From the NCBI RefSeq assembly GCF_000331305.1, contig NZ_KB217478.1:4552296-4616295 (forward strand): a DNA stretch of 64,000 nucleotides, written 5' to 3'. The first letter of the stretch is position 1; every line of letters begins with the position of its first letter. Under the pieces are notes generated by a model. That model worked only from the letters and a program-made list of their open reading frames with translations, was not told the DNA's origin and did no database searches. The stretch comes from Calothrix sp. PCC 7103. Its GTDB lineage: Bacteria; Cyanobacteriota; Cyanobacteriia; Cyanobacteriales; Nostocaceae. Below, one piece after another: positions 1 through 64,000 of this stretch. The translations under genes and the position numbers were made by a program.

Positions 1-1
1 T

Positions 2-172
2 TTAGACCGCTTCCACCTGGTAATTGACGTTATTGACCGTGTCTCTAAATTAGGCGCCTCAGTAGCTTATGTCAAGCAAATGCTTCAAGACAAATTAATT
101 GAACACAAACATTACATCCGCGAACATGGTGAAGATATGCCAGAAATTCGGGATTGGAAGTGGATGTATTAG
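2..172 (+). CDS. xfp: Phosphoketolase, C-terminal end (gene truncated by window edge)
   Basis: Only the last 56 codons are in the window. The frame opens at base 2 and reads [20 protein letters not shown], ending [13 protein letters not shown] and a TAG. This matches the conserved tail of xylulose-5-phosphate/fructose-6-phosphate phosphoketolase, which cleaves sugar phosphates to acetyl phosphate. Its position ahead of pflB, pflA and adhE fits a carbon-overflow or fermentation block, and acetate kinase (39.0 kb) would use its product. The N-terminal thiamine diphosphate domains lie outside the window, so integrity of the whole gene cannot be judged. Confidence 0.85.
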
Positions 173-907
173 TTAGCTATTTTTAGGTTAGATGTAGAGA
201 CCGAGTATATTCGGTCTCTCCTTGGCATACTTCTACACCGACCTTGCGGTACGTTGTTAGACTTTTACGCTATATAACTATATAGTAGAATCGCGATAAG
301 ATAGGTAAGGATTCACTGTTAATTCGTGGTTGTGGGCAAACTGACTTCCAAGGTGGGAGTGCCCTTCGGATGTATGAATCGATAACACAAAGGTGTTGAC
401 ACTGCCTGATGAAACATTGGTTCTGGTCATGATTATCGAGGAAATACAGTTTCCACTATTGGTGAACAGAAGCTGCTAGACGCTTGTTGGGACTAAATGG
501 GATATATGATTCCGCTAATATAGTAAAACTATACTGTACAATAATTACAAAATATTACAATATAAAAAGATATATTAATTAACAATCATAATTTGGAGTT
601 CCCTCAGCCAAACCCAGATATTTCAAGGTTATCAAAAGAGTAACAAGTTACTATCAACCAAATTGCGCTCGCAAATTTATTGGTATGTAAACTGGAACTA
701 TCCACATTACAAGCTTAAAATTCCAAATTGGAAAAAAATGTTTATCTTCTTCTCATAATTTTTTTAAGCTTATTCAGATATAATCAAATTGTAGAGACCA
801 GTTACAAGTTAAACACCCCACAAAACATCCACCCCAAGAGAATAAGCAAGATATAGTCACAACCCAAAACTCGAATAACCAGAGATAAACAACTGGGGGA
901 ATAAAAT
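173..907. other. Long intergenic stretch before pflB; unexplained 240-520 block
   Basis: No complete gene was found. Bases about 300-510 are less AT-rich than their surroundings and carry several short inverted repeats (for example GGAAA-tacag-TTTCC near 450 and overlapping CCAC-tatt-GGTG). In one frame, stretches such as NTVSTIGEQKLLDACWD look protein-like but are interrupted by stops. It could be a decayed gene end or a structured RNA. Bases 520-900 are AT-rich and should hold the pflB promoter; no convincing FNR- or NtcA-type box was seen. Confidence 0.4.
196..219 (+). terminator. Hairpin after phosphoketolase gene
   Basis: Perfect 9-bp inverted repeat AGAGACCGA / TCGGTCTCT with a 6-nt loop, 24 nt after the stop codon. 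There is no strong T-run after it, so it may be a dispersed hairpin repeat acting as a terminator. Confidence 0.5.
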
Positions 908-3133
908 ATGCTGGAACAATGGCATAGCTTCAAAAGTGGTAAATGGATGAAAGAAATCAACGTCCGCGACTTCATCCAGAAAAATTACACTCCTTACACA
1001 GGCAACGAATCTTTTTTAACATCTGCAACCCAAAAGACTCAAACACTCTGGCATCAGGTTCAAGATTTAATGGCTGTTGAACGCGAAAAAGGTATTTTAG
1101 ATACAGATACTGAAGTTGTTTCTACTATTACTTCCCATCGCCCAGGTTACATTAACCGCGAACTCGAACAAATAGTCGGATTGCAAACAGAAAAACCCCT
1201 CAAACGCGCTATAATGCCCTTTGGTGGTATTCGCGTTGTTAAGGATTCATTACAAGCTTACGGTTACGAAATAAGTCCTAAAACGGCAGAGACATTCACC
1301 AAATACCGCAAAACTCATAACGATGGGGTATTTGATGCCTATACTCGCGAGATGCGGTTATGCCGACATTATGGCATTATTACAGGATTGCCAGATGCTT
1401 ACGGACGCGGCAGAATTATCGGAGATTATCGGCGAGTTGCATTGTATGGTGTTGATGCCCTAATTGAAGATAAAAAAGCGCAACTAGGGTCTCTAGAATT
1501 AGATGTAATTGACGAAGATACAATCCGTCTGCGCGAAGAAATTTCTGAACAAGTTAAAGCATTATTTGAACTCAAAGAAATGGCTGCAAGCTATGGTTTT
1601 GATATTAGCAAGCCAGCAGCTAATGCCAAAGAAGCCCTACAGTGGCTATATTTTGGATATCTTTCAGCAGTTAAAGAACAAAACGGCGCCGCAATGTCCT
1701 TGGGACGAGTTTCTACGTTCCTCGATATTTACTTTGAACGTGACTTACAACAAGGTAAAATAACTGAATCTGAACTGCAAGAACTCATCGACCATTTTGT
1801 TATGAAGTTGCGGATGGTAAGATTCTTGCGGGCACCTGACTATAATCAGCTATTCTCTGGTGATCCTACTTGGGTTACTGAATGTGTTGGTGGTATGGGT
1901 GAAGATGGCAGACCCTTGGTGACAAAAAATAGTTTCCGCATCCTGCATACTTTGTATAACCTAGGACCAGCACCAGAGCCTAATTTAACCGTGTTATGGT
2001 CGGAACGTTTGCCAGATAACTTTAAGCATTTCTGTACCAAAGTCTCAATTAAGACAAGCTCAATCCAGTATGAAAATGATGATTTGATGCGTCTTTATTG
2101 GGGAGATGATTACGCAATTGCATGTTGTGTTTCAGCAATGCGAATTGGTAAACAAATGCAATTCTTCGGCGCCAGAGTTAACCTTGCTAAGTGCTTGCTG
2201 TATGCTATTAACGGCGGTAAGGATGAAAAATCGGGCGAGCAAGTTGCAGCAGAAATTGTGCCTATTACTTCAGAATATCTAGATTACCAAGAGGTTTGGA
2301 GTAAATTTGAAAAAATGATGGCATGGTTGGCGAAAGCTTATATTAATACGCTCAACGTCATCCATTACATGCATGATAAATACTGCTACGAACGCATCGA
2401 GATGGCATTACACGACCGTGATATTCTGCGAACAATGGCTTGCGGAATTGCAGGATTGTCAGTCGTTACAGATGCTTTGTCTGCTATCAAATACGCAAGA
2501 GTAAAAGTATTGCGGGAAAACGGATTAGCTGTTGATTATCAAATTGAAGGAGATTTTCCTAAATACGGAAATAATGACGACCGAGTTGATGAAATTGCGG
2601 TGCATTTAGTCACCAGATTCATGAACGAACTTTGTAAACACAAGACCTATCGTAATGCAATACCTACACAGTCGGTGCTAACAATTACCTCAAACGTGGT
2701 GTATGGCAAGAAAACAGGAAATACACCCGATGGCAGAAAAGCTGGAGAACCCTTTGCACCTGGCGCCAACCCGATGCATGGACGCGATACAAAAGGTGCA
2801 GTAGCATCGCTGGCATCGGTCGCAAAACTCCCTTATGAGTATGCACAAGATGGTATTTCCAATACTTTCTCAGTAGTACCATCGGCATTAGGTAAATTAG
2901 AAGTTGACCAAATTACAAATCTGGTTGGAATGCTTGATGGTTACTTCCACGATGGAGGACATCATATTAATATCAACGTCTTGAACCGGGACACATTAAT
3001 GGATGCTATGGAACATCCAGAATTATACCCGCAGTTGACTATTCGGGTTTCGGGTTATGCAGTAAACTTTATAAAATTGACGCGCGAACAGCAGCTTGAT
3101 GTAATTAAGCGGACGTTCCACGAAAGGTTCTAA
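908..3133 (+). CDS. pflB: Formate C-acetyltransferase (pyruvate formate-lyase)
   Basis: Converts pyruvate and CoA to formate and acetyl-CoA using a glycyl radical, under anaerobic conditions in the cytoplasm. The 741-residue protein is close to the usual ~760. It has the paired active-site cysteines (Cys406-Cys407, in IACCVSAMR) and the C-terminal radical loop RVSGYAV, with the radical glycine at about residue 716, 26 residues from the end. A strong ribosome site (GGGGGA) lies 9 nt before the ATG. The activating enzyme gene follows 462 bp downstream. Pfl is uncommon in cyanobacteria, so this block is an accessory trait. No formate channel gene (focA) is next to it. Confidence 0.97.
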
Positions 3134-3142
3134 GAATAATGC

Positions 3143-3175
3143 AGGGTGAGTATCACTACTCACCCTTGTTTATTT
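3143..3175 (+). terminator. Rho-independent terminator after pflB
   Basis: Perfect 10-bp stem AGGGTGAGTA / TACTCACCCT with a 4-nt loop (tcac) followed by TTGTTTATTT, 9 nt after the pflB stop. It implies that pflA has its own promoter, at least in part. Confidence 0.85.
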
Positions 3176-3595
3176 AGTATGTTAAAAACCTCTCCCCTAA
3201 CCCCTCTCCTACCCAAGAGAGGGAGAAATGTACTCACCTTCCCTGGAGTTGGGGGTTAGGTTTGGAGAATAAGATTGCTTGTAAAAAACAATGGAAGTTT
3301 ATCATGTTGAGACATTTATTTAGCTTTCTTAACTTACAAAACCCTGACAGATACTGTTAAATTTATAAACATGGATTAATATAGTAGTGTCAGTAATTAA
3401 AAACTTGAAATTGATTACAGCAGATTTAAAAGTTTTCCCTAATGTATCCACAAATATTAAGTAGGAGAATTTTAATAAAAATATTGATTTTTTAAATAAC
3501 TTTCTACAGCAATATACCCTTACATTTTTTAGGTATAACTTATAGTTAGGTTGAGCATATAATATTAGTGGGTTGTATTAAGGTAGGCAAAGGTT
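3176..3595. other. pflB-pflA intergenic region with a cyanobacterial dispersed repeat
   Basis: Bases 3189-3270 carry the common CTCCCCTAACCCC type repeat with a facing GGGGTTAGG arm (3196-3204 and 3252-3260). The remaining ~320 bases are AT-rich with no ORF, and probably include the pflA promoter. Confidence 0.5.
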
Positions 3596-4381
3596 ATGCC
3601 AAATCTAGAATTTCCAACAACTAAAGTCGAAAATAATAAAGTAGTTCCAGAAATTACTTCTGGCTACATACACTCAGTAGAAAGTTGTGGGACTGTTGAT
3701 GGTCCAGGTATTCGTTTTGTAGTCTTCACATCTGGTTGTCCGCTTCGTTGTCTTTATTGCAGCAATCCTGATTGTCGGAAACTGGAAAATGGTAAACAAA
3801 TCAGTGTTGATGAAATTGTCACCGAAATCCAGAAGTATACATCTTATATGAAATCTTCTGGCGGTGGTGTTACAATAAGTGGTGGAGAACCTTTATTTCA
3901 ACCTAACTTTGTTCAAGAAATTTTCAAACGCTGTAGGTCATTAGGTATTCACACAGCATTGGATACTTCCGGTTTTTGCGATTTAGAATCTGCAAAATCT
4001 GTACTCGAATTTGTTGATTTAGTGTTACTAGATATTAAATCATTTGACCCAATAACCTATACATATGTAACAGGTGTTAGAATTGAACCAACGTTGGCTT
4101 TAGCTAAATACTTGGATGAAATAAAGAAGCCAACTTGGATTCGATATGTATTAGTTCCTGGTCTTACCGATGACCCTAAAAATATTGCAGGTTTAGCCGA
4201 TTTTCTCGCAACACTTAACAATGTTGAAAGAGTTGAGGTTTTACCATTTCATAAAATGGGTGAATACAAATGGGAACAATTGGGTTTTGAATACTTGTTG
4301 AAAGAAACTCCTACATCATCTCCAGAACAAGTACAAGTAGCAATAGATATTTTTCGGAGTAAGGGAATTTTCGCTATTTGA
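3596..4381 (+). CDS. pflA: Pyruvate formate-lyase activating enzyme (radical SAM)
   Basis: Installs the glycyl radical on PflB using S-adenosylmethionine and a [4Fe-4S] cluster. The 261-residue protein has the radical-SAM triad CPLRCLYC (Cys48, Cys52, Cys55), the following GGGVTISGGEPLFQ SAM-binding stretch, and the PflA-type N-terminus ESCGTVDGPGIRFVVF. The length is typical (E. coli PflA is 246). It sits between pflB and adhE on the same strand, 59 bp before adhE, so it probably belongs with both. Confidence 0.96.
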   Translation: MPNLEFPTTKVENNKVVPEITSGYIHSVESCGTVDGPGIRFVVFTSGCPLRCLYCSNPDCRKLENGKQISVDEIVTEIQKYTSYMKSSGGGVTISGGEPLFQPNFVQEIFKRCRSLGIHTALDTSGFCDLESAKSVLEFVDLVLLDIKSFDPITYTYVTGVRIEPTLALAKYLDEIKKPTWIRYVLVPGLTDDPKNIAGLADFLATLNNVERVEVLPFHKMGEYKWEQLGFEYLLKETPTSSPEQVQVAIDIFRSKGIFAI

Positions 4382-4440
4382 GTCGTATGGTAGGCATTTC
4401 CCACCCTACTCTGTTGTAAATTCTGCAAAAGGATAAATTT

Positions 4441-6654
4441 ATGCAAGTAATGAATTGTAAAGTCAGTAATATCGAAGAATTAGAAGCTCTCGTCCAACGA
4501 GTAAAAGCTGCACAAGAAAAATTCTCAACTTTCTCTCAAGACAAAATAGATTTAATTTTCCAAAAAGCCGCATTGGCAGCTAATGCAGAACGAATATCTC
4601 TAGCAAAGATGGCTGTTTCGGAAACAGGTATGGGTATCATCGAAGATAAAGTGATTAAAAACCACTTTGCTTCAGAATTTATTTACAACAAATATAAACA
4701 TGAGAAAACCTGCGGTGTAATTGAAGTAGATAAATCTTTTGGTATCCAAAAAATTGCTGAACCTGTAGGTATTGTCGCTGGAATTGTACCTGTAACTAAT
4801 CCAACTGCAACAACAATTTTTAAGGCTTTAATTGCCCTAAAAACTCGTAATGCTATTATTTTCTCTCCGCACCCTAAAGCTAAAGAATGCACTATTAAAG
4901 CAGCAAAAATTATCCTAGATGCTGCAATTAACGCAGGCGCCCCATCAGATATCATCAGTTGGATTGATGAACCAACGGTAGAATTATCTAAAGCATTGAT
5001 GCAGCACCCGGGAGTGAAACTAATTTTAGCAACTGGTGGTCCGGGAATGGTTCGCGCTGCTTATTCTTCAGGACATCCATCGTTAGGTGTTGGCGCCGGA
5101 AATACACCAGCAGTTATTGATAGTAGCGCGGATATTCAAACTGCTGTTAGTTCAATTTTACTAAGTAAAACCTTTGATAACGGCATGATTTGCGCTTCCG
5201 AACAATCGGTTGTCGTTGTTGACGAAGTTTACGAGCAAGTAAAACACGAATTTATTTGTCGCGGCGCCTATTTTCTTAGCTCGGAGCAAAAACATCAGCT
5301 TGGTAGCTTGATTTTGAAAGAAGGGCGATTAAATCCAGCAATTGTTGGGCAGTCGGCAGAAGCTCTTGCAAAACTCGCACAAATTGAACTTAAACATGAA
5401 ATACATGAGTCTGGAACGGATACATATTGTCCTGTACCCAACTATAAAGTATTAATCGCTGAAGTGGAAAACATTGGCGCCACTGAGCCTTTTGCTTATG
5501 AGAAACTATCGCCAATTTTAGCAATGTATCGTGCTTCTAATTTCCACGATGCGGTAGCTAAAGCAGAAAAATTAATCGAATTTGGTGGTCTTGGGCACAC
5601 TTCAGTACTACATACTAACCCAGCTAATCTTGATGATATTGCCTATTTCGAGAATATCGTCAAAACATCACGGGTTCTGATTAACACACCATCATCACAA
5701 GGCGCCATTGGCGATTTGTATAACTTTAAACTAGATCCTTCACTAACATTAGGTTGTGGAACTTGGGGTGGTAATACAATTTCCGATAACGTCACACCAC
5801 ACCACCTATTAAATATTAAAACAGTGTCGGAACGGCGAGAAAATATGTTGTGGTTCCGTGTTCCACCAAAAATTTACTTCAAATACGGTTCATTACCAGT
5901 GGCTTTACGCGAACTAGCAGGAAAACAACGCGCTTTTATTGTCACAGACAAACCATTATTTGATTTAGGAATAGTAGATAAAGTCACAGCAGTTTTGGAG
6001 GAAATTGGGGTTAAATATGATATATTCCACGACGTCGAACCTGACCCGACACTTTCAAATGTTAATAAAGGATTAGCTCTACTACGAAGCTATCAACCCG
6101 ATGTCATAATCGCGATTGGTGGAGGTTCACCAATGGATGCCGCCAAAGTCATGTGGTTGATGTACGAACATCCAGACGTGGAATTTGAAGGGTTAGCGAT
6201 GCGGTTTATGGATATCCGCAAACGGGTGTATGAATTACCTTCTTTAGGTCAAAAAGCGATGATGGTGGCTATCCCCACAACTTCAGGAACTGGTTCAGAG
6301 GTTACACCTTTTGCCGTTGTGACCGATGACCGAGTAGGAGTAAAATACCCCTTAGCTGATTATGCTTTGACACCAAATATTGCCATCGCAGACCCAGAGC
6401 TAGTGCAAAACATGCCGAAGAAGTTAACAGCATATGGTGGTATTGATGCATTAACTCATGCGCTTGAATCCTACGTATCAGTAATGGCAAGCGATTTTAC
6501 CGACGGTTTAGCGTTACAGGCGATTGATTTACTGTTTAAATATTTACCCAGCGCTTACAAAAAAGGAGCAAATGACCCCGAAGCGCGAGAAAAAGTACAC
6601 TATGCAGCTACAATTGCTGGAATGGCATTTGCCAACGCTTTTCTAGGTAAGTAG
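4441..6654 (+). pseudogene. adhE: adhE, 5' part (bifunctional aldehyde/alcohol dehydrogenase, interrupted by IS)
   Basis: AdhE reduces acetyl-CoA to acetaldehyde and then ethanol. This 737-codon piece keeps the whole CoA-acylating aldehyde dehydrogenase half, with its catalytic Cys at about residue 251 (NGMICASEQS). It also keeps most of the iron-dependent alcohol dehydrogenase half (TTSGTGSEVTPF, first iron His in DALTHALESY). After Leu-Gly at 6648 the frame enters an IS630-type element and stops at TAG two codons later. The alcohol dehydrogenase half therefore lacks two iron-ligand histidines. The aldehyde dehydrogenase half may still fold and work. Start ATG has AAAGGA 7 nt upstream. Confidence 0.93.
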
Positions 6655-7732
6655 GTACGCAAAAATATTTATGCATTTCATGATAAACTATGACTAGAAA
6701 ACTAAAACGTCAAGAAAGGGGTGCGAACATGCGTTTTATCAAAGGATTAAGTCAAGAAACCATCAAAATTTTAGAAAGAATTTATAAATACAGTAAATAT
6801 CATCAAGTACGGCAGAGAGCGCAGTGTATAAAATTAAGTCATGATGGATATAAAATAACCGACTTAACTAAAATTTTTAATGTCAGTCGTCTAACGATTA
6901 CTAACTGGTTTGATGATTGGGATAATTATGTACTAGCTGGGTTATACGACAAAAAGGGAAGAGGAAGAAAGTCAAAATTAGATGATGAACAAAAAGAGCA
7001 GGTTAAACACTGGTCGCTTGAAAATTCAAGAAATTTACATATTGTAAGAATGAAAATTAGAGATGAATGGGGAATTGATGTTAGTAATGATACAATTAAG
7101 CGAGTTTTAGAGTTTTTTGATGTTACATGGCGCCGCATTAAAAGAGGCGTGGCAGGAGAGCCAGAAGAGTCAGTATACAAGCAAAAAAAGGAAGAATTAG
7201 AAGAATTAAGAAAACAAGACGATAGAGGAGAAATTGATTTAAGATATGTTGATGAAACAGGGTTTTGCTTAACTTCTTATGTTCCATATGCATGGCAAGA
7301 AAAAGGAGAAACTATTATTGTAAAAACTCAGAGAAGTAAGCGTTTAAATGCTTTAGGCTTTTTAAATAGAAGAAACGATTTAGAGGTTTATTTATTTGAA
7401 CGCAGCATTAATAGTGATGTTGTAATAGCATGTATTGATAAATTTTGTGAAACTCTTGAGAAAAAGACTGTATTAGTAGTTGATAATTCTTCAATTCATA
7501 CTAGTCATGCGCTACTTGATAAACTAGAAGAATGGAAAGAAAAAGGATTAACCTTATTTTTCCTACCCACATACTCCCCCGAATTGAATATCATTGAATC
7601 TTTGTGGCGTTTTATTAAATATTATTGGCTAGAAATAGATGCTTATGAGAGTTGGGAGAGGTTGGTTGAGTCAGTAGAATACATCTTAAAGAATTTTGGA
7701 GAAGAATATATAATCGATTTTGCGTAACTACT
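6650..7732 (+). mobile_element. IS630-type insertion sequence inside adhE
   Basis: The 1,083-bp element is bounded by 15-bp inverted repeats AGTAGGTACGCAAAA (6650-6664) and its near-perfect partner at 7718-7732 (one mismatch). It is flanked by TA on both sides (6648-6649 and 7733-7734), the target duplication expected of IS630/Tc1/mariner elements. Deleting the element with one TA joins the two adhE parts in frame as Leu-Gly-Ile-Cys-His-Ser-Met. It encodes one intact transposase in the same direction as adhE. The ends and the ORF look undamaged. Confidence 0.93.
6729..7727 (+). CDS. IS630 family transposase
   Basis: DDE transposase of about 332 residues. An N-terminal helix-turn-helix (about residues 15-55, with SRLTITNWFDDWD) is followed by the catalytic core: first Asp in RYVDETGF, second in VLVVDNSSIH, and the Glu in SPELNIIESLWRFIKY. 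I chose the ATG at 6729 because AAAGGGG lies 7 nt upstream; an in-frame ATG at 6690 would add 13 residues. The stop codon lies inside the right inverted repeat. No frameshift is seen, so it may still be active. Confidence 0.92.
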   Translation: MRFIKGLSQETIKILERIYKYSKYHQVRQRAQCIKLSHDGYKITDLTKIFNVSRLTITNWFDDWDNYVLAGLYDKKGRGRKSKLDDEQKEQVKHWSLENSRNLHIVRMKIRDEWGIDVSNDTIKRVLEFFDVTWRRIKRGVAGEPEESVYKQKKEELEELRKQDDRGEIDLRYVDETGFCLTSYVPYAWQEKGETIIVKTQRSKRLNALGFLNRRNDLEVYLFERSINSDVVIACIDKFCETLEKKTVLVVDNSSIHTSHALLDKLEEWKEKGLTLFFLPTYSPELNIIESLWRFIKYYWLEIDAYESWERLVESVEYILKNFGEEYIIDFA

Positions 7733-7745
7733 TATATGTCACTCA

Positions 7746-8246
7746 ATGGCACACAAGCTTGGCGCCACATTCCACGTACCCCACGGACTCGCGAACGCGC
7801 TGATAATATCGCATGTGATTCGTTACAATGCTACCGACATTCCCTTCAAACAAGCGATTTTCCCTCAGTATAAGTACCCTCACGCAAAGGAACGTTACGC
7901 ACAAATTGCTGATTACTTACATTTAGGTGGTAGTACACCTGATGAAAAAGTTGAACGACTAGTGTCAGCGATAGAACACCTCAAACATCAACTTGATATC
8001 CCCAGCACTATTAAAGAAGCATTAGGGAACGAAGATAAAGAATTCTATGCCCAGCTTGAAGATATGGCAGAACAAGCTTTTGACGACCAATGTACAGGTG
8101 CTAATCCTCGTTATCCACTGATGAGCGACTTGAAAGAATTATATGTCTTGGCTTATCAAGGTTGCCGTATCGACGCTGCACTTTATCACGTCGAACCTGA
8201 ATTTTTTAATAGTGATGCGCTCGCTACTCTCACAAACCTCGTCTAG
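7746..8246 (+). pseudogene. adhE: adhE, 3' part (C-terminal alcohol dehydrogenase segment)
   Basis: This open frame of 166 codons begins at an internal AdhE methionine in the order SMAHKLGATFHVPHGLANAL, which carries the last two iron-binding histidines. It continues through the helical C-terminal domain to the normal end. Together with the 5' part and the four codons restored at the junction, the ancestral protein is about 906 residues, against 891 for E. coli AdhE. No ribosome site precedes the ATG, so it is unlikely to be translated well. Confidence 0.92.
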
Positions 8247-8253
8247 ATAGGAA

Positions 8254-8277
8254 ATTGGGAATTCTCTAATTCCCAAT
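8254..8277 (+). terminator. Hairpin between adhE and the acetate-CoA ligase gene
   Basis: Perfect 10-bp inverted repeat ATTGGGAATT / AATTCCCAAT with loop ctct, 8 nt after the adhE stop. There is no T-run, so it may be only a partial terminator. Confidence 0.5.
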
Positions 8278-8305
8278 GCCCAATCCAATTTAATACTATA
8301 TAACT

Positions 8306-11119
8306 ATGCAAAGTAGCATTAAACTCGCCTCAGTCGGTAGTCATGATATTCTCCGCTCCGAACACCAACCCTTAGATGCAATATTTTCTCCAAAAAGTAT
8401 CGCTGTTATTGGCGCCAGTGAAAGAGAAGATAGTGTGGGACGCACTTTGCTATGGAACTTAATTAGCAATCCATTTGGGGGAACGGTATTTCCTGTTAAC
8501 CCCAAACGAAATAGCATCCTTGGAATTAAAGCTTATCCAAATATTGCCGCAGTTCCTGAAAGTATAGATTTAGCAGTTATTGCCACTCCTGCTGCAACTG
8601 TCAAGAGTGTGATTAACGAATGTATAAATGCAGGAGTCAAGGGTACAATAGTTCTTTCAGCTGGGTTTAAAGAAATAGGTTCTGCTGGTGTAGAACTAGA
8701 ACGACAAATACTGGAACAAGTAAATCAAAGCCAAATGCGGCTAATTGGTCCCAACTGCTTGGGTGTGATGAATCCCCATACAGGTTTAAATGCAACATTT
8801 GCCAGCAGCATGGCACAGCCTGGTAAAGTTGGATTTATTAGTCAAAGTGGAGCTTTGTGTACAGCAATTTTAGACTGGAGTTTTAGAGAGAACGTTGGGT
8901 TTAGCTCGTTTATTTCTATTGGTTCGATGCTGGATGTTGGTTGGGGTGATTTGATTTATTACCTTGGCGATGATCCCCATACAGAAAGTATTGTTATCTA
9001 TATGGAATCTATCGGGGACGCACGTTCATTCTTGTCGGCAGCACGTGAGGTTGCTCTGACCAAACCAATAATTGTTATTAAAGCTGGACGCACAGAAGCA
9101 GCAGCACAAGCAGCAGCATCGCATACGGGTGCGCTTGCTGGAAGTGATGCCGTTTTTGATGCAGCATTGCGACGTTGCGGTGTATTACGAGTAAACCGTA
9201 TCTCTGAACTATTTGATATGGCGGAGGTTTTAGCAAAACAACCGCGTCCTAAAGGCAAACGACTCACCATTATTACCAACGCTGGGGGTCCAGGAGTATT
9301 AGCAACGGACGCGCTCATTAGCGATGGAGGTGAATTAGCCCAATTATCTCCCCAAACCCATGATGCACTCACTCAACTGTTACCCCCTAGTGGTAATCAC
9401 AGTAATCCTATCGACTTGCTAGGCGATGCTGACTCAACTCGTTATGCAAAAACTTTAGAAATTACCGCTAAAGACCCAAATACTGATGGGTTGTTAGTCA
9501 TTTTAACGCCACAGGCAATGACAAACCCAACTCAAACCGCAAACTTGTTGAGTTCTTATGCCAAAACTGGCAAACCCGTCTTAGCAAGTTGGATGGGAGA
9601 GCAAAATGTCAAAGCAGGAGCAGAAATTCTTAATCAAGCCTCAATTCCCACGTTCCCATACCCCGATACTGCCGCGCGTGTTTTTAATTACATGTGGCGT
9701 TACAGCTATAATTTGCGCGGTTTGTATGAAACTCCTGTACTTGCCAACCAAGGAGTTGAAGTTTGCGAGCGCATTTTAGTTGAAACCATAATTCAAAAAG
9801 CACGGCAAGCAGGAAGAACTTTATTAACAGAGGTAGAGTCAAAACAAATACTTGCAGCTTACGGAATTCCAACAGTAGAAACGCGGTTAGCAACAACTGT
9901 AGAAGAGGCAATTCAACAAGCTGATGAAATTGGTTATCCTGTCGTTCTCAAATTATACTCCCATACAATAACGCATAAAACAGATGTTGGTGGAGTACAT
10001 TTAAATTTATGCTGCGGCGATGCAGTACGTGAAGCATACCATGCAGTTCAAACTTCAGTTACATCTAAAGTTGGCGCCAGTCACTTTGGTGGAGTAACTA
10101 TTCAACCAATGGTTGATTTAAAAAACAGCTACGAATTGATTCTTGGTAGCAGCATTGACTCACAATTTGGTCCGGTGTTGCTTTTTGGTACAGGGGGACA
10201 GTTGGTAGAAGTATTTGAAGATAGAGCATTAGCACTACCTCCACTCAATACTACCCTAGCACGCCGAATGATGGAGCAAACACGGATTTATAAAGCATTG
10301 CAGGGAGTTAGAGGCAGAACATCTGTAGACTTAGAAGCTTTAGAACAGCTTTTAGTACGCTTCAGCCAATTAGTGGTCGAGCAACCTTGGATTAAGGAAA
10401 TTGATATTAATCCTTTACTTGCAAAACCAGATAATCAAACGCTGATTGCCCTTGATGGAAGAATTGTACTTCACAATTTAGAAATCAAAAAAGAGCAATT
10501 ACCAAAACCAGCAATTCGTCCTTATCCTGTACAATATATTTCAGCATGGACAATGGGAAATGGTAAGGAAGTAACCATACGTCCCATTCGTCCCGAAGAC
10601 GAACCATTGATGATTCAATTTCATCAAACATTGTCTGAAGAAAGCGTCTATTTTCGTTATTTTCATCTTATTAAACTGAGTCAACGCATTGCCCACGAAA
10701 GATTGACGCGCTTGTGTTTCATTGATTATGACCGAGAAATAGCTTTAGTTGCTGATTACAAAAATCCAGAAACAGGACAACATGAAATATTAGGAGTTGC
10801 TCGATTAAGTAAATTACACGGTAAAAAAGAAGCCGAGTTTGGAATTTTAGTTAGCGACTATTGTCAATGCCAGGGACTAGGAACTGAATTATTGAAGCAA
10901 TTGTTGCAAGTTAGTAAAAATGAAAATTTAACTGGAATTAATGCGGACATTCTCGCTGATAATATAGGAATGCAAAGAGTTTGTCAAAAATTAGGTTTTC
11001 GTATCACTCGCAGTAGTGAGACTTCTGTAATGAAAGCCGAAATTAAATTTGATGGTACTTGTACTCCCGAACTACCCGAAGAAGTGCTTTTTGGTAATGG
11101 ATTAAGGAAAGAGTTTTGA
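8306..11119 (+). CDS. ADP-forming acetate-CoA ligase fused to GNAT acetyltransferase (ACD/Pat-like)
   Basis: 937 residues. It has an N-terminal CoA-binding domain ([15 protein letters not shown], about 30-125), succinyl-CoA-ligase-like domains (about 170-470), an ATP-grasp part (about 500-720, [19 protein letters not shown]) and a C-terminal GNAT domain (about 765-915). The candidate phosphohistidine is kept (His273, in [11 protein letters not shown]). This suggests real ligase activity making acetate and ATP from acetyl-CoA, and not only a regulatory acetyltransferase like Pat/YfiQ. Its place after pflB-pflA-adhE supports a role in disposing of acetyl-CoA. The GNAT part could acetylate metabolic enzymes; which activity dominates cannot be told from sequence. 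Confidence 0.88.
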
Positions 11120-38505: not shown

Positions 38506-38572
38506 AGAAACCGGGTTTCTACGCAAAATCGTTATTTTCCTTACAAGATTTCAATGAAGAAACCCGGTTTCT
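38506..38572. repeat. Composite AGAAACC palindromic repeat element, copy 3
   Basis: AGAAACCGGGTTTCT and AGAAACCCGGTTTCT palindromes around an interior with GCAAAATCG and TTACAAGATTTCAA, matching copy 1 at 19.5 kb. Its right end overlaps the stop codon of the next minus-strand gene. Confidence 0.85.
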
Positions 38573-38942
38573 ATATACCAAAACGTCGGAGAAAACCGCG
38601 TTTTTGCTTTCTTGGCTGTTTGTTTCTATTTTGCCCTAATCTAAATCTACTCAAAAAACCTTGACGTTTCTGTTTTTGCTGCACTTTTGGCTTACGCTCA
38701 GAACGGTTCCGCTTGAACCCAAATCTCTGTAAAAACCCTTTACGCTGTTTCGTTTGTTTTTTTGCCAGGTCAATTATAATTTGTTGCTGTCGGACATATT
38801 CCTGTATTCCTGACTGAATATTGGATTTTCTAATGCTATGCATTGATTTATCTTTATTTATTACTGCCAATACCGGGGGATAAACTAAAGAAAATATTAA
38901 GATTAAGATTAAGATTACTGAGATTTTTTTCGGAAGCTTCAT
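38571..38942 (-). CDS. Exported basic protein with KxGFLxRF repeats
   Basis: About 123 residues from ATG 38942 (MKLPKK; a TTG at 38966 would add 8). A signal-peptide-like segment (6-27, ISVILILILIFSLVYPPVLA) is followed by a very basic body. The C-terminal half holds three copies of a short motif: KGFLQRFGFKRNR, QGFLSRFRLGQNRN and RGFLRRFGI. I do not recognise the family. The strong charge and the small internal repeats suggest binding to nucleic acid, envelope polymers or another acidic surface, but this is a guess. Confidence 0.6.
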   Translation of the reverse strand: MKLPKKISVILILILIFSLVYPPVLAVINKDKSMHSIRKSNIQSGIQEYVRQQQIIIDLAKKQTKQRKGFLQRFGFKRNRSERKPKVQQKQKRQGFLSRFRLGQNRNKQPRKQKRGFLRRFGI

Positions 38943-57320: not shown

Positions 57321-57372
57321 TTGTGGAATGGGCATCCTTGCCCGTTTCTATGTTTAGGCAGGCAAGGATATC
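57321..57372. repeat. GGGCATCCTTGCCC dispersed repeat
   Basis: GGAATGGGCATCCTTGCCCG followed by a second GGCAAGGATATC segment. Related copies are at 22101, 29991, 53681, 57803 and 60421. Confidence 0.7.
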
Positions 57373-57761: not shown

Positions 57762-57994
57762 AGTACAACTGCAGAATATATTAACTCTTGTAATAAGTCT
57801 TATGGGATGCCCACTCCACAAGAGAGAGGATACAATAAGCAGCTTGGGAATCATTTGAGTATGCTTGTAATAGAGGTGAAAGTATTACTAACGTTCATAT
57901 TAATAATTTTGAACTATACAGTAAAAAACGTTAAATATTAAGCTTCTGCGAGATAATAGCAAACATATGTACTAAGAAAGAGGCAGATAAACAA
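57762..57994. other. Remainder of the 57.2-58.1 kb gap
   Basis: AT-rich, with a partial GGATGCCC repeat (57803-57824) and no coding frame. Together with the WD40 remnant it marks a site of gene loss. Confidence 0.4.
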
Positions 57995-58072
57995 ATGGCA
58001 CCAGAAACCGCCGTAACTGAAAAAACTGTAGAGGTTTTGCAAGAATCTGTGAACTGGCATCCATACCATTAA
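57995..58072 (+). CDS. Possible 25-residue peptide
   Basis: A short frame starting MAPETAVTEK and ending NWHPYH, with AGAGG about 12 nt before the ATG. It is acidic at first and aromatic/His-rich at the end. There is no family match. It might be a small peptide gene or the tail of a lost gene. It lies 81 bp before the VIT/VWA gene. Confidence 0.3.
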   Translation: MAPETAVTEKTVEVLQESVNWHPYH

Positions 58073-58102
58073 TTTTAAGCACTAAAGTGTCTTAGTACGA
58101 GT

Positions 58103-58123
58103 ACGAATTACGAATTACGAATT
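58103..58123 (+). repeat. Short tandem repeat ACGAATT x3
   Basis: Three perfect 7-bp units, a short tandemly repeated repetitive sequence of the Nostocales type, about 30 bp before the VIT/VWA start codon. Confidence 0.8.
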
Positions 58124-58153
58124 ATAAATGTTTAATTTTCGGAGATTGAGCGA

Positions 58154-60415
58154 ATGTCTCGTAATACAGTAAATCCTGGACTTTTTGCAAAAGATAGTAA
58201 ACAATTATTTCCACTCAAATATACAGAAGTAGGCGCCAAAATTTCTGGAAACGTTGCGCGCGTAGAAGTGACACAAACTTTTGAAAACCCTTTTATAACA
58301 CCATTAGAAGCTGTTTATGTATTCCCACTACCTGATGAGTCAGCAGTGGATGAGATGGAGATTAAAGTTGGTGACAAAATAATTAAGGGAAGTATAAAAA
58401 AGCGACAGGAAGCACAGGAAATTTACGATAAGGCGAAGAAAGAAGGACGTACTGCTGGGTTGTTGGAGCAGGAACGAGATAATATTTTTACTCAGTCTTT
58501 GGCTAATATTCTGCCGGGTGAACAAATTGATGTCACGATTCGTTACACAGATAGTTTAAAGTTTGATGCGGGAAGTTATGAGTTTGTTTTCCCGATGGTG
58601 GTTGGACCAAGGTATATTTCTGGAGAGTTAATACCCTCAACTACTGATACTGATTTAGTGCCTGATGCTTCGCGAATTACTCCACCTGTGATTCCACCTG
58701 GAATGCGTACTGGGTATGATATAAATGTGACTGTAGAAATTCATGCAGGTGTTGTTGTTACTGAGATTAAATCACCTTCGCATCAGTTAGAAATAGAATA
58801 TGTTGGTGAAGTTACACGGGTGAAGCTGAGTGTTGAAGATACTATCCCGAATAAGGATTTTATTTTACGTTACCAAGTTGCTCAACGTGAAACGCAATCA
58901 ACTGTATTAACTCAAGTTGATGAGCGTGGTGGGCATTTTGCGGTTTATCTAATTCCAGCTTTGGAATATCAACCAAGTCAAATCGTTCCTAAAGATGTTG
59001 TATTTTTAGTTGATACATCTGGTTCACAGTCCGGCGCCCCTTTGCAGCAATGTCAGGAGTTAATGCGACGTTTCATTAATGGCTTGAACCCTGATGATAC
59101 TTTTGCAATTCTTGATTTTTCTGACAAGGTTAGGCAATTATCAAAGGCACCGTTAAACAATACTCCTGAAAATCGTACTTTAGCTATTGACCACATTAAC
59201 AAGCTCAAAGCATGTGGCGCCACGGAAATGCTCACTGGAATTACTGCTGCTATTAATTTCCCGGCGCCTATTGGGCGATTGCGAACAATAGTACTGTTGA
59301 GCGATGGCTATATCGGTAACGAGAATGATATTTTGGCAGAGGTGCAAAGTAACCTTAAAGCAGGAAATCGTTTATATAGCTTTGGTGCAGGTAGTTCAGT
59401 TAATCGTTTTTTACTCAACCGCATAGCAGAAATTGGGCGAGGTGTTTCATATATTATTCGCCATGATGAAAAAACTGACGAAGTTACAGAAAAGTTCTTT
59501 CGCCAAGTTAGTAATCCAGTACTGATGAATATTGAGATTACGTGTAACGGTGAAGGTGAAGCAGGCGTTATTTATCCTGCACAGGTGCCTGATTTATTTG
59601 CTGAACAACCTCTAGTTCTGTTTGGACGTAAAAAAGATGGTAATTCTGTAAATCTTAGTATTAGTGGAATAACTGCAAACTGCGAAACATATAAAAAGGT
59701 GTTTGACATTAACTTTGATGCAAATGGAAATCCTGCTATTGCCCAGTTATGGGGACGTGCTTGTATCAAAGCATTGATAAACGAAATGTTTGCATACGAA
59801 ACAACGGTCAAAACTCAAACAGTAAGCGATATTGCTTTAACTTATAAATTATTGTCGAAGTACACTGCTTTTGTAGCAGTTAGCGAGGATGTAAGAGTTA
59901 ATCCTGATAGTGGTAAGTTAGTTACAGTTGAAGTACCTGTAGAAATGCCTGAAGGTGTTGAATACGATGGTATTTTTGGTGGTTTTGCAGAAGCTGAGTC
60001 TGCTGAGTCTACTCGTGGAGCAGGTATATTCTACCTTGCATCTCCGGCGCCTGCTTCCTATGAACAACCAGAGTTTCTAAGAAGAAAACGCAGTATCTCT
60101 ACTAATTTACCTGCTCAACCAGCAACACCAATAAATCCTCAACTAGAAGTTATTAACATTACTGGTTTAGAACCGTCGATAGCTGCTACGCTGACCAACT
60201 ATTTACAAAGCAAAGAGTTACCCACTGGTTTTAATGGCAAAGTTGTTGTAGAACTCCAACTTAGTAAGGGACGTGTTCAACAAGTTAGTTTCGATGAAGA
60301 TGCTTCAACTTTAAATTCTGCCAAAATTTTAGCTGCCATTAGGCGCTTGCTCGTATCCTGGCAATCACCAAACCTTACAGCAACAGTGCATATAATTATA
60401 CAAATAAATTCTTAA
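58154..60415 (+). CDS. VIT and VWA domain protein with TonB-like C-terminus
   Basis: 753 residues. The N-terminal VIT domain (about 15-145: VTQTFENPFITPLEAVYVFP) and a VWA domain (about 280-450) with an intact MIDAS motif (VDTSGSQSG) resemble inter-alpha-trypsin inhibitor heavy chains. The last ~90 residues (GFNGKVVVELQLSKGRVQQV) resemble the TonB/AgmX C-terminal fold. There is no signal peptide or membrane helix. It may bind proteins in a metal-dependent way; role unknown. GGAG precedes ATG. Confidence 0.88.
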   Translation: MSRNTVNPGLFAKDSKQLFPLKYTEVGAKISGNVARVEVTQTFENPFITPLEAVYVFPLPDESAVDEMEIKVGDKIIKGSIKKRQEAQEIYDKAKKEGRTAGLLEQERDNIFTQSLANILPGEQIDVTIRYTDSLKFDAGSYEFVFPMVVGPRYISGELIPSTTDTDLVPDASRITPPVIPPGMRTGYDINVTVEIHAGVVVTEIKSPSHQLEIEYVGEVTRVKLSVEDTIPNKDFILRYQVAQRETQSTVLTQVDERGGHFAVYLIPALEYQPSQIVPKDVVFLVDTSGSQSGAPLQQCQELMRRFINGLNPDDTFAILDFSDKVRQLSKAPLNNTPENRTLAIDHINKLKACGATEMLTGITAAINFPAPIGRLRTIVLLSDGYIGNENDILAEVQSNLKAGNRLYSFGAGSSVNRFLLNRIAEIGRGVSYIIRHDEKTDEVTEKFFRQVSNPVLMNIEITCNGEGEAGVIYPAQVPDLFAEQPLVLFGRKKDGNSVNLSISGITANCETYKKVFDINFDANGNPAIAQLWGRACIKALINEMFAYETTVKTQTVSDIALTYKLLSKYTAFVAVSEDVRVNPDSGKLVTVEVPVEMPEGVEYDGIFGGFAEAESAESTRGAGIFYLASPAPASYEQPEFLRRKRSISTNLPAQPATPINPQLEVINITGLEPSIAATLTNYLQSKELPTGFNGKVVVELQLSKGRVQQVSFDEDASTLNSAKILAAIRRLLVSWQSPNLTATVHIIIQINS

Positions 60416-60420
60416 ATCCC

Positions 60421-60450
60421 TCTTGTGGAACAGGCATCGTGCCTGTTGTG
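60421..60450. repeat. GGAACAGGCATCGTGCCTGTT hairpin repeat
   Basis: AACAGGCA / TGCCTGTT stem with loop tcg, just after the VIT/VWA stop; part of the CTTGTGGAAC... dispersed family. It probably ends the transcript. Confidence 0.65.
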
Positions 60451-60518
60451 ACATCTAGGGCGGGTTTACTTATATCCTGATAAATAGTACAAAATTTAGG
60501 TTAACCCGCCCGTACTCG

Positions 60519-60974
60519 ATGTTGCAATTTAAATATTCTTCGTTAATTGAGGCGCCTGTTGAAGTTGTCTGGCAATTCCATGAGCGCGCGGATGTATTAA
60601 AATTACTCACTCCACCTTGGCAACCTATTCAAGTTGTTCGTCGCGAAGGTGGTTTGGGTGTTGGTGCTATTACAGAATTCCGAATGTTTTTAGGCCCGTT
60701 ACCTTTAACTTGGTTGGCACGACACACTGAGTATGAACAGTACCGTTTTTTTACTGATGAACAGCTTTCAGGTCCATTTGAGTTTTGGCAACACCGACAT
60801 TTGTTTGATACTGAACGTAATAAAACTAGATTAACTGATGCTATTTCGTTTTCTATGCCTGGTGGTGAAACTTTTGAATTTATCAGTGGTTGGGTAGTAC
60901 AAGCTCAACTCGAATCTACGTTTCGCTATCGTCATGAAATAACTAAGCGAGAATGCGAAGCGTCAGGAGTGTAA
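60519..60974 (+). CDS. SRPBCC (START-like) family protein
   Basis: 151 residues. LQFKYSSLIEAPVEVVWQFH and FEFWQHRHLFDTERNKTRLT match the SRPBCC lipid- or ligand-binding fold (polyketide cyclase/COQ10-like). It has a hydrophobic cavity but no catalytic signature. Likely binds a small hydrophobic molecule. Confidence 0.85.
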   Translation: MLQFKYSSLIEAPVEVVWQFHERADVLKLLTPPWQPIQVVRREGGLGVGAITEFRMFLGPLPLTWLARHTEYEQYRFFTDEQLSGPFEFWQHRHLFDTERNKTRLTDAISFSMPGGETFEFISGWVVQAQLESTFRYRHEITKRECEASGV

Positions 60975-61041
60975 AGTGCTGAGTGCTGAGTACTTAACCG
61001 AAAAATTATATTTTATTTCTTTTTATTAAAGAATATATGAA

Positions 61042-61077
61042 CGTCTAGGGTATTTAGTTGCTCTAGACGCTTTTTTT
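61042..61077 (+). terminator. Terminator after the SRPBCC gene
   Basis: CGTCTAG / CTAGACG stem followed by CTTTTTTT, 68 nt after the stop. Confidence 0.75.
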
Positions 61078-61191
61078 GACGATACTAACTCAATCATCAC
61101 AACAGTAAAAATACTTATACAACCCTGAACTTCTTTAATCTTGATTTAAATTCGCTCCGTAACATTACTTTAATAAATCTTTAAAATTAAT

Positions 61192-61905
61192 ATGTTGTTG
61201 AGTAAATCCCCTTGGCGCCTCGGATTCAATCTGACTTGTTTTGGTATATTGGCTTCGCAGTTTTTTCCTGTAACTCGAACTATGGCTGAGTCGTATATAT
61301 TACAGTTCAGTGAAGCAATGGGAATTTGCCCAATTCAGAACTCCTTTCCTAAGCGCAGCTTTGAGAGTTCAAAATACAAGGTTTATATCTGTTTAGGAGA
61401 TACTAAAAATCCTTTAGGTTATTACGTGCGCGTCACAAAGAGCGATGATATAAAAATTACACTGCCCATTGCCCGTAAGAACGGTGAGACTTATATCGCG
61501 AAACTAGGGGAAATTAGTTATATCGTTTCGCCTTATGAGTTTATGGTAAATAAGTTGGGGCGTATTCTAAATCGTGACAGAGTAACTAGCGCAATTTCTG
61601 GTAACGGGCAACTTCTTGTCAGCGCTTGTCCACAAGGGGAAAATGTTCTTATTGAGGCTGTGACTAAAAGCTTTATTGTATATATATGTGGCAACGATAA
61701 ACCCGGAAGTTATGTTGGTGTAGCAAGAATGGGTAATGAAAAAGTTACTATTCCTTTACGGAATATTAAAGCTGATGGCGCCTTTGAAAAACAAAACTAT
61801 GTAGCAGTTAAGGGTAATACTCGTTTTTTCTTAACTCGTGAGACTTTGGAAATAATGGTAGGTGATGCCACCATTGTTAAAGAAAAAGTGATTAGGTGGC
61901 AATAG
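61192..61905 (+). CDS. Exported protein of unknown function
   Basis: 237 residues with a signal peptide (about 1-31, cleaved near MAES). The body holds two related halves, each with a CP...-VYICLGD/VYICGND and GYYVRV/GSYVGVAR pattern (around 50-85 and 143-180), suggesting an internal duplication with paired cysteines. No family recognised. No membrane segment after the signal. Confidence 0.65.
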   Translation: MLLSKSPWRLGFNLTCFGILASQFFPVTRTMAESYILQFSEAMGICPIQNSFPKRSFESSKYKVYICLGDTKNPLGYYVRVTKSDDIKITLPIARKNGETYIAKLGEISYIVSPYEFMVNKLGRILNRDRVTSAISGNGQLLVSACPQGENVLIEAVTKSFIVYICGNDKPGSYVGVARMGNEKVTIPLRNIKADGAFEKQNYVAVKGNTRFFLTRETLEIMVGDATIVKEKVIRWQ

Positions 61906-62007
61906 TAAGTGCTAAGTGCAGTGTTTTAACTCTTTAATTTTAAGTTTGTGTTTCGTACAGACATAATTAATCACGTCTCGACTCAGCACTCAGCACTTTC
62001 CACTAAT

Positions 62008-62829
62008 TTAAGTGTCTTTATTTTTGAGGGCTTGTCGCGAAGCCCATTGCAGTACACCTGGAAAAAGACGATACGTGAGTTGTGAGACGTTAGCAGAACC
62101 TACCATTACCTCTGATTTTTGATTGCTTACTGCATCCCAAATTGCATTTGCGACATCTTTGGGTTTCTCTACGACCGGAACATTTGTAATTTGACCTAAT
62201 TGTTCACGACGTTTCTGCGTGTCTTCTTCATCTTTACCGCGAAAGATTGCTCGCTCTAAAAGACTACTAGCTATTAAGTTTGGGTAAATACCACAAACCT
62301 GAATACCTTTTGGTTTCAATTCTGCTTGCAGTGCTTCGGTTAACCCTGTTACAGCAAATTTACTAGTACAGTATGCTGCCATATAAGGTGTAGGTACTTT
62401 CCCACCTATTGAACTCAGATTGACTATTGTTCCAGTTCCGCGTTCAAGGAAATGCGGTAGTAGCGCGTTTATTGTATGGATATATCCCCACAAATTCGTA
62501 TCGATGATTCGATGCCAGTCATCTAATGAAAAATCCTCTACTGTTCCTGTCGCGAATATACCAGCATTATTTACCAGTACATCAATAGTGCCAAAATGCG
62601 CTAATGCTTTTTCTACAAGCGTTTTAACTTGCTCGGAGTCACGAACGTCGCAAACAACAGTCAAAACATCATTGTTGTTACCAAGATTTTTTATTTCTTG
62701 CGCTGCTGCTTCCAGTACCTCGGGTCTGCGTGCAGCTAGTACTAAGTTATATCCTTTGCGTGCGAACAAAAGTGCAGTCTGTTTACCTATTCCTTGTGAG
62801 GCGCCTGTTATTAGTATTGTTGGACTCAT
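62008..62829 (-). CDS. Short-chain dehydrogenase/reductase
   Basis: 273 residues. Nucleotide-binding TGASQGIG (near residue 8), NNAG, and the catalytic set Ser (NLSSIGG), Tyr-x-x-x-Lys (YCTSK) are all present. Classical SDR; NADP(H) preference is suggested by ARRPE after beta-2. Substrate unknown. Its gene is convergent with the unknown exported protein gene. Confidence 0.92.
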   Translation of the reverse strand: MSPTILITGASQGIGKQTALLFARKGYNLVLAARRPEVLEAAAQEIKNLGNNNDVLTVVCDVRDSEQVKTLVEKALAHFGTIDVLVNNAGIFATGTVEDFSLDDWHRIIDTNLWGYIHTINALLPHFLERGTGTIVNLSSIGGKVPTPYMAAYCTSKFAVTGLTEALQAELKPKGIQVCGIYPNLIASSLLERAIFRGKDEEDTQKRREQLGQITNVPVVEKPKDVANAIWDAVSNQKSEVMVGSANVSQLTYRLFPGVLQWASRQALKNKDT

Positions 62830-62911
62830 AATAATTTTTCTAAAAGTACACTTTTATAAGTTTGGTGAACTAGCTGATATAAACCTTCTCGCTAAAGTTA
62901 GATAAAATTCT

Positions 62912-62990
62912 AGAAACCGGGTTTCTTCCCTGAAACTTGTAATAAAAATAAAGATTTGTCTGCGACAATGAATGCGTAGACACCCGGTTG
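62912..62990. repeat. Composite AGAAACC palindromic repeat element, long form copy 5
   Basis: Begins AGAAACCGGGTTTCT, contains TTGTAATAAAAATAAAG and GATTTGTCTGCGACAATGAA, and ends in a decayed arm GACACCCGGTT. The 33-nt segment from GATTTG through GCGTAGA is identical in copy 2 at 19.8 kb apart from the arm. Confidence 0.85.
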
Positions 62991-63308
62991 ATTAGTTAAA
63001 GTTTTACAGAGTTTCGCGAAGCATTATATATTTATGTTAAATATATTTGATATTTTTAATACTTATTAAATTTGTACGATGTCGCTCCCATCAGCTTTAA
63101 GAATGACAAAGTAGTATCCAAAAGTTACAAATATATGATTTTCTTTAAGATAAATTTTGAAACTACAGACAGAGAGTTAAATTCTGATAAATACTTAGTA
63201 TTAGAGTAAACGTTAATTTTTTTTATAGTGAGTTATACAAAATACTTAGCCCAGCCGCAAAAAAATGTTAACATTTTTACGTTAGTACTCAATAACTACC
63301 TTACATCA
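62991..63308. other. Upstream region of crtW
   Basis: About 320 bp, AT-rich, no ORF; presumably the crtW promoter. Nothing else recognised. Confidence 0.4.
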
Positions 63309-64000
63309 ATGCAACAAAAATCAATTGTATATCCATCACAAATACCTTTTGAAAATAGTATACATCCTTACCGAGGGATAATTACAGCTATTGCTATTAT
63401 TGGTATATGGACAGTTAGTTTAATTTTATTAATGACTGTAAATGTTCAAGAAACTAATATAATTGCTTTAGTTACTGCTGTGTTATGGCAAACTTTTTGT
63501 TACACAGGAATTTTTATTACGACACATGACGCAATGCATGGAGCAGTTAGCTCTCATAATATTAAATTAAATCATTCTATCGGTTTACTATGTCTATTTT
63601 TATACGGTGCATTATCGTATAAAACACTGCTCAAAAAACACTGGCAACACCATCAACGTCCTGCAACCGCAGATGACCCAGATTTCCACGATGGAAAGCA
63701 CCAAAATATTATTGCATGGTATTTACATTTCATGAAGGGGTATTGGAGTTGGAAGCAAATTATTATAATAACGATTGTTTATAACTCACTTGCTTACCTT
63801 GCCCATATACCACAAATAAATCTTATTTTATTTTGGGTAACACCTTCATTACTAAGTTCACTACAATTGTTTTATTTTGGTACATTTGAACCTCATAGTG
63901 AACCAATTACTGGATACACAGATTCATCTCATACCCGTACAATTTCTCGTCCTGTGTGGTTATCTTTTTTAACTTGCTATCATTTTGGATACCATGAAGA
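63309..64000 (+). CDS. crtW: Beta-carotene ketolase, N-terminal part (cut by window edge)
   Basis: 230 codons are visible. Di-iron membrane oxygenase that adds keto groups to beta-carotene (echinenone or canthaxanthin). The histidine boxes are HDAMH, HWQHH and the start of FGYHE at the right edge. The family segments QTFCYTGIFITTHDAMHGAV and SSLQLFYFGTFEPHSEP are present, with hydrophobic helices at about 22-45, 48-70 and 155-190. The last histidine box and the C-terminus lie outside the window. Confidence 0.93.
   Translation, partial: MQQKSIVYPSQIPFENSIHPYRGIITAIAIIGIWTVSLILLMTVNVQETNIIALVTAVLWQTFCYTGIFITTHDAMHGAVSSHNIKLNHSIGLLCLFLYGALSYKTLLKKHWQHHQRPATADDPDFHDGKHQNIIAWYLHFMKGYWSWKQIIIITIVYNSLAYLAHIPQINLILFWVTPSLLSSLQLFYFGTFEPHSEPITGYTDSSHTRTISRPVWLSFLTCYHFGYHE

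Follow-up and report, generated by a model that had tools for sequence, protein, structure and literature searches.

Why should a single hexamer, GGCGCC, be scattered so densely through a cyanobacterial genome, and what keeps it there? The question is raised by a 64,000-nucleotide stretch of Calothrix sp. PCC 7103 (hereafter the window), in which GGCGCC is the top over-represented palindromic hexamer. Words of this kind are known as highly iterated palindromes (HIPs), whose role and commonness have been a standing question since 1995. Elhai (2015; PMC4390886) describes GGCGCC as the alternate HIP of PCC 7103, likewise present in 19 kb of sequence from strain D253; in that survey of 97 cyanobacterial genomes, no other hexamer comes close to the over-representation of GGCGCC in PCC 7103. 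The core finding, GGCGCC as an alternate HIP in this strain, is already published; what is added here is persistence in seven genomes, aligned sites, a syntenic orphan methyltransferase and a substitution pattern. A search of the open-access literature turned up no subsequent work on the GGCGCC HIP; most subscription papers were outside its scope, so that the absence of such work is unproved.

Throughout, HIP1 denotes the octamer GCGATCGC, and CCGCGG, which is GGCGCC reversed and has the same composition, served as control word. The window (G+C 38.7%) holds 88 GGCGCC, 0 GCGATCGC, 0 CGATCG, 7 GATC and 11 GGCC, in agreement with an initial annotation that had estimated about 85-90 copies of GGCGCC and had seen no HIP1. 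That annotation expected about four GGCGCC, and we obtained 3.3 from base composition, 5.2 from a first-order and 4.0 from a second-order Markov model; the maximal-order expectation (41.6) is uninformative, because the 5-mers on which it draws are themselves created by the sites. Neither is the genome-wide count near expectation, nor is HIP1 equally frequent elsewhere: the whole genome (11,584,393 bases, 12 contigs) contains 17,704 GGCGCC (1528 per Mb) against 8 CCGCGG, and only 163 HIP1 (14.07 per Mb), which does not make it a HIP1 genome. In sampled DNA of this genome, GGCGCC reached 16 times the first-order expectation.

The sites are mostly coding and often read as Gly-Ala, as had been noticed at the outset: by mechanical calls of open reading frames (ORFs), 83 of the 88 fall in ORFs of at least 100 aa, the Gly-Ala frame accounting for 54 of these. 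G does seldom precede a site, occupying 10 of 176 flanking positions on both strands (A 60, C 39, T 67), or 5.7%, whereas the overall frequency of G is 19.3%. Spacing is near random (710 gaps, mean 678, coefficient of variation 1.06; mean 7.35 and variance 7.85 sites per 5 kb bin), except that gaps shorter than 100 bases are rarer than expected (0.086 vs 0.137; Kolmogorov-Smirnov p 0.03).

A whole-genome survey of 388 genomes of the order included three of the window's genus and 68 same-family genomes of other genera. The three genus genomes carry 17,704, 14,889 and 15,449 GGCGCC (control word 6-8) and 163, 31 and 88 HIP1, while each of the 68 has at most 530 GGCGCC and at least 1117 HIP1. A genus-wide search brought the set to seven: the window genome (G000), G353, G380, G388, G389 (NIES-4105), G390 (the metagenome-assembled genome C42_A2020_038) and G391 (Calothrix sp. 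PCC 7716). In aligned regions five of them are 94-96% identical to one another, NIES-4105 about 87% and G390 about 82%. All seven show the excess, with 7,475-20,380 copies, 1150-1711 per Mb and 1-8 copies of the control word. As the class is described in PMC4390886, a HIP is a GC-rich palindrome in gross excess, at about 1000-2000 per Mb, with HIP1 low or absent where the HIP is an alternate one; all seven densities lie in that range, and HIP1 is scarce in the genus genomes (at most 2 per 100 kb in sampled DNA of G388-G391). Calothrix sp. HK-06 has the same GGCGCC pattern at the single locus examined; in C. elsteri and NIES-4101 the loci contain HIP1 and no GGCGCC. The proposal that GGCGCC replaces HIP1 is thereby supported, GGCGCC standing where relatives have HIP1, as in the published case (PMC4390886). 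From one genome and 19 kb, the same paper had argued that alternate HIPs do not persist and are sporadic by-products; for GGCGCC the claim of non-persistence fails, because seven genus genomes carry it, which suggests an old, actively kept trait of the genus.

Density within the window genome is not uniform. Per kb there are 1.49-1.60 sites where the DNA can be aligned with G353, and 1.18-1.36 where it cannot. Single 20 kb samples gave 2.5-5.5 GGCGCC per 10 kb in contigs C2 (L138), C3 (L139) and C5 (L141), and 24.5-27.5 in C8 (L143) and C10 (L145), a tenfold spread that perhaps reflects replicon age in the lineage. Five palindromes (CCGCGG, GTGCAC, GCATGC, TTCGAA and TGCGCA) stand at 0.00-0.07 of expectation in the seven genus genomes and in the sampled HIP1 relatives.

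Outside the genus, G059, of another family, has 9489 GGCGCC at 54.6% G+C with 2450 copies of the control word, and its motif is a different one: this HIP1-poor genome (L073-L076) shows an rGCGCy-like excess with CGGCGCCG. G170 and G060 were rejected as further GGCGCC cases, being HIP1 genomes with GGCGCC at 1.7 and 0.9 times expectation. G136 (L077-L080) is a HIP1-poor genome with an rCCGGy excess of a type known from PMC4390886. Two more HIP1-poor genomes showed other excesses: GGCC-containing words in G007 (L081-L083), and GGGCGCTG in G159, with 8 copies vs 0.1 expected in 20 kb (L087, G159:C37:1-20000), which may be a repeat confined to this locus or a further alternate HIP.

With seven genomes sharing one alternate HIP, sites can be aligned and compared with outgroups, and their loss, restoration and maintenance measured. 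In a three-way alignment (217,716 triple-aligned bases), 170 of 397 ancestral GGCGCC had been lost, 122 of them to GGTGCC or GGCACC, the principal form of loss being this inner C-to-T change; its frequency per inner cytosine was 122/794, vs 818/16168 in other CpG contexts. Apparent gains of GGCGCC, at 20 of 45 GGTGCC places in this comparison, were not accepted as such, because parallel losses at a hot site look identical. Polarity was instead taken from the seven genomes aligned to C7:6,755,001-7,015,000, with five genomes as ingroup plus outgroups; each palindrome may enter the column counts twice, once per strand.

Among the 159 HIP columns with outgroup C, T was confined to a single tip in 23 and to a scattered set in 10; no column had it in a sister pair, in any larger clade or throughout the ingroup. 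In the 2902 control columns, T marked 112 single tips, 56 scattered sets, 10 sister pairs, 12 clades and 238 whole ingroups. Where the outgroup has T, C appeared somewhere in the ingroup in 16 of 20 HIP columns (in all five genomes in 10), vs 496 of 4999 controls. Columns with a mixed outgroup (28) had C in all five genomes in 14 cases and scattered in 12. Likelihood fits likewise placed inner T-to-C change far above control, also under rate variation, and 25-37 times control at third codon positions; some free fits reached extreme rates (small shape parameter, outer letters, position 1), and we relied on free-vs-fixed contrasts and on plain counts. Inner-cytosine losses are frequent and mostly short-lived. 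Short-lived losses alone do not separate restoration by repair from selective removal, and neighbour-word abundances did not separate the models either.

The remaining letters of the hexamer behave differently once each is compared with third-codon-position controls that have the same base and neighbours. The proportion of deviating columns was 5/56 vs 430/1038 at position 1 (p=2e-7), 7/34 vs 46/90 at position 5 (p=0.002) and 12/106 vs 454/806 at position 6 (p=1e-19), so that outer letters deviate 2.5-5 times less than their controls, while the inner positions equal theirs (56/120 vs 169/343 and 27/58 vs 126/258). A reading in which only the inner letter is maintained, obtained with controls unmatched for codon position, was dropped after this codon-matched count. 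Since the outer letters are protected at third codon positions, the whole hexamer is maintained; since its inner CpG nonetheless deviates like controls, that CpG must mutate faster, and deamination of 5-methylcytosine (m5C) would be the simplest reason. For HIP1 itself, letters 1-3 at 29 Nostoc-group loci, in counts that were not codon-matched, deviated in 4/34 vs 261/687, 7/32 vs 55/124 and 5/34 vs 50/100 columns, and letter 4 equalled its controls (4/33 vs 21/178); the sample is too small for HIP1 rates, several fits lying at extreme or default values.

Which enzyme might set such a mark? The genome gives 15 PF00145 matches, from fewer genes, some of which give two. Among these is a candidate m5C methyltransferase of the HindV type (Table 1), and its orthologue adjoins the MtnW-like gene in all seven genus genomes; on the opposite flank GHL10 is present in six, all but G353. 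Identities are 97% in G353, 99% in G388, 91% in G391, 83% in G390 and 81% in G389; in G380 the orthologue lies in two pieces (95-96%) at contig ends. A second HindV-like methyltransferase of this genome is 59% identical to the first, and additional copies or pieces at about 56-83% vary among the genus genomes: plasmid records carry those of G389 and one of those of G391, and in G388 and G390 a second close match is absent. A plasmid homologue (54% identity) is annotated as modification methylase HindV. HindV recognises GRCGYC. Of the suggestion that a solitary methyltransferase for GGCGCC or GCGC should exist, the solitary enzyme survives as a candidate, and the specificity would be the broader GRCGYC rather than strictly either word. 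Extra methyltransferase copies, partly broken, lie beside a DpdA-like ORF in L028 (G380:C60) and L291 (G391:C2), perhaps as a mobile DNA-modification cassette; the DpdA likeness, tested in L028, is weak (PF23859, below cut-off).

Matches 53-73% identical over most of the methyltransferase occur in 98 other genomes. Many of the 27 outside loci that we read (L046-L072) have an adjacent HindVP-like ORF; among five tested against Pfam, four are RE_HindVP (L051, L058, L069, L049) and L046 is not. The HindVP nuclease (PF09519) had no match in the seven genus genomes (E up to 0.001), vs matches in 51 of the 73 outside genomes with a methyltransferase homologue that were tested (Fisher p=0.0005, the genomes not being independent). 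Thirty-five of these matches span the full profile without stops, 3 contain stops and 13 are partial or split. Median GGCGCC density was 1.9 per Mb with a nuclease match (n=51) and 20.5 without (n=22), and only G059 exceeded 150 per Mb among these outside genomes. PMC4390886, too, reports that genomes with GRCGYC-type enzymes tend toward site avoidance. Nuclease loss relaxes this avoidance and does not by itself bring amplification.

Taken together, GGCGCC is probably the alternate HIP of this lineage, a hexamer that is maintained while its inner cytosine is presumably methylated by the orphan enzyme. The HindV-type enzyme would produce GG(m5C)GCC; deamination of m5C would render the inner CpG prone to loss; and the hexamer as a whole would be kept either by selection for the methylated mark or by methylation-directed repair favouring the site. 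As a mark it would most plausibly serve strand choice in mismatch repair, the role that PMC4390886 proposes for such dispersed sites, or recombinational repair. Being a perfect palindrome, GGCGCC can show no strand bias by which a role like that of a DNA uptake sequence or Chi site might be judged.

Several observations weigh against this account. The one sign of methylation is indirect, a C-to-T footprint at the inner CpG, and the putative enzyme's type and target are assigned by homology only. The 22 outside genomes with a methyltransferase and no detected nuclease have no GGCGCC excess, except G059, so an orphan enzyme alone is insufficient for amplification. The two further words that the methyltransferase should target are still rare (GACGTC at 0.08-0.15 of expectation); the excess is therefore confined to GGCGCC. 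Position 2 taken alone is not significant (2/31 vs 25/132, p=0.11), each comparison at first or second codon positions falls short of significance, and in a strict count without codon matching the outer letters look unprotected (5/151 vs 41/809 and 6/152 vs 38/751). Finally, 4 of the 20 columns with outgroup T have T across the whole ingroup, and 2 of the 28 with a mixed outgroup have C confined to one sister pair or one clade.

The rival that fares best is Elhai's own model (PMC4390886), which we regard as possible though on balance unlikely: mismatch repair directed by G(m5C) keeps new mutations that create GGCGCC, and the word is a functionless by-product. Its start would lie in the removal of HIP1 by a GATC nuclease and the acquisition of a second GRCGYC methyltransferase copy; for PCC 7103 the paper gives 14 HIP1 per Mb, 16% of the expected GATC, a CGATCG methyltransferase that is broken and a pair of GRCGYC methyltransferases. 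Protected outer letters and the inner-cytosine pattern fit a repair that favours the site, and a density near one per 650 bases is within the range that the model predicts. The model requires a hypothetical G(m5C) nickase, however, and expects non-persistence of a trait that is found in seven genomes; G388 and G390, moreover, have only one close enzyme copy. The order of events also seems to disagree with it. In sampled DNA, GATC stands at 0.09-0.12 of expectation in G353, G380, G388 and G391, 0.21 in G000, 0.23 in NIES-4105 and 0.44 in G390, the deepest branch, where CGATCG is at 1.20 and HIP1, in very few copies, at 1.14 (the ratios for G388-G391 being based on 120-160 kb each). As GGCGCC in G390 is 13 times over expectation at a GATC level of 0.44, the switch from HIP1 to GGCGCC seems to have preceded the extreme loss of GATC.

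A doubtful alternative is that a restriction-modification system became a genome-wide mark: after loss of the HindV nuclease, the orphan methyltransferase together with a hypothetical Vsr-free process, which turns GGTGCC arising from m5C deamination back into GGCGCC, would make the HIP self-maintaining. If this were true, HIPs in general could be footprints of methylation-coupled correction and not of selected function. As the sole driver of the excess, very-short-patch-like repair of T:G mismatches in GGTGCC context to C:G appears improbable. The excess of inner T-to-C change over control and the short life of the T state speak for it, but GGTGCC is not depleted, the protected outer letters are left unexplained, and Vsr (PF03852) was found in none of 18 genomes, three of them of the genus, vs 5 of 14 control genomes, in a search that did not extend to unrelated T:G enzymes. 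That the word is a by-product of base or codon composition, with no role of its own, is already refuted and merits next to no credence: the Gly-Ala frame does account for about half of the sites (194 of the 398 sites in 260 kb and 54 of the window's 88), but all three frames and places outside ORFs or at their edges are used (194, 69, 91 and 44 of the 398), Gly codons before GCC (n=225) are GGC 194, GGT 31, GGA 0 and GGG 0, and neither the 8 copies of the reversed word in 11.58 Mb nor the low counts in the 68 same-family genomes would be expected.

The positions of the sites and of the other features are collected in Table 1. The interspersed repeat, about 84 bases long with GAAACC(C/G)GGTTTC-like arms, has many copies in G353 and G380. 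The fermentation set comprises pyruvate formate-lyase-like, fused aldehyde/alcohol dehydrogenase and ADP-forming acyl-CoA synthetase-like genes; the first 16.3 kb of the window, which contain it, have matches in G353 and G380 that are only short or 67-82% identical. When 3846 bases of the window were compared with plasmid records by megablast, no match was obtained.

Table 1. Positions of the candidate methyltransferase, the GGCGCC sites and other features (window coordinates, 1-64000, unless a contig is given)
Feature	Position	Remark
Candidate HindV-type m5C methyltransferase, 313 aa	G000:C7:8004469-8005407	Outside the window; between MtnW-like RuBisCO-like gene and GHL10 gene
GGCGCC, first bases (1)	53, 1685, 2168, 2762, 4936, 5092, 5263, 5476, 5701, 7129, 7761	
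GGCGCC, first bases (2)	8411, 10073, 11446, 12401, 13470, 14791, 15055, 16222, 17306, 17498, 17559	
GGCGCC, first bases (3)	17639, 18679, 18754, 19075, 19412, 20899, 23541, 24182, 24829, 25226, 25500	
GGCGCC, first bases (4)	25853, 27222, 27317, 28696, 28945, 30157, 30404, 30888, 32167, 32391, 32475	
GGCGCC, first bases (5)	32852, 33582, 34244, 35977, 36785, 37012, 37305, 38285, 39734, 39947, 41291	
GGCGCC, first bases (6)	41881, 42246, 42661, 42706, 44325, 44358, 46162, 46631, 46727, 47523, 48358	
GGCGCC, first bases (7)	48688, 48908, 49727, 50427, 50711, 52185, 54543, 54843, 54952, 55617, 56463	
GGCGCC, first bases (8)	56736, 57646, 58232, 59033, 59216, 59263, 60046, 60551, 61214, 61777, 62800	
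Interspersed repeat	19745-19828	Copies at 62911-62989 and 38526-38573
Fermentation set	908-11119	

The combination of a hot inner cytosine, short-lived losses and protected outer letters makes the HIP question experimentally decidable, and it can be set beside four known systems. With the alternate HIP that PMC4390886 describes in PCC 7103 and D253, our case shares the word, the excess, the scarcity of HIP1 and the putative GRCGYC-type methyltransferases; it departs from that account in that a single enzyme copy suffices in two genomes and that the loss of GATC seems later than the switch. HIP1 is likewise highly iterated, palindromic, GC-rich and present about once per kb, and in Synechocystis the first C of the CGATCG within HIP1 is m5C (PMC6604393); it is reported as maintained by selection (PMC6604393, citing Xu et al. 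2018). Its sequence and its methyltransferase are different, and HIP1 and GGCGCC are mutually exclusive across the family sample. With HindV restriction-modification the link is the methyltransferase, 53-73% identical to those adjoining RE_HindVP in relatives, whereas the seven genus genomes have no nuclease match and GGCGCC is amplified in them, not avoided. ScmA/VsrA of Caulobacter (PMC12907096) also involves a solitary m5C methyltransferase with thousands of palindromic sites, but Caulobacter has a Vsr-like protein, for which the three genus genomes searched with PF03852 gave no match.

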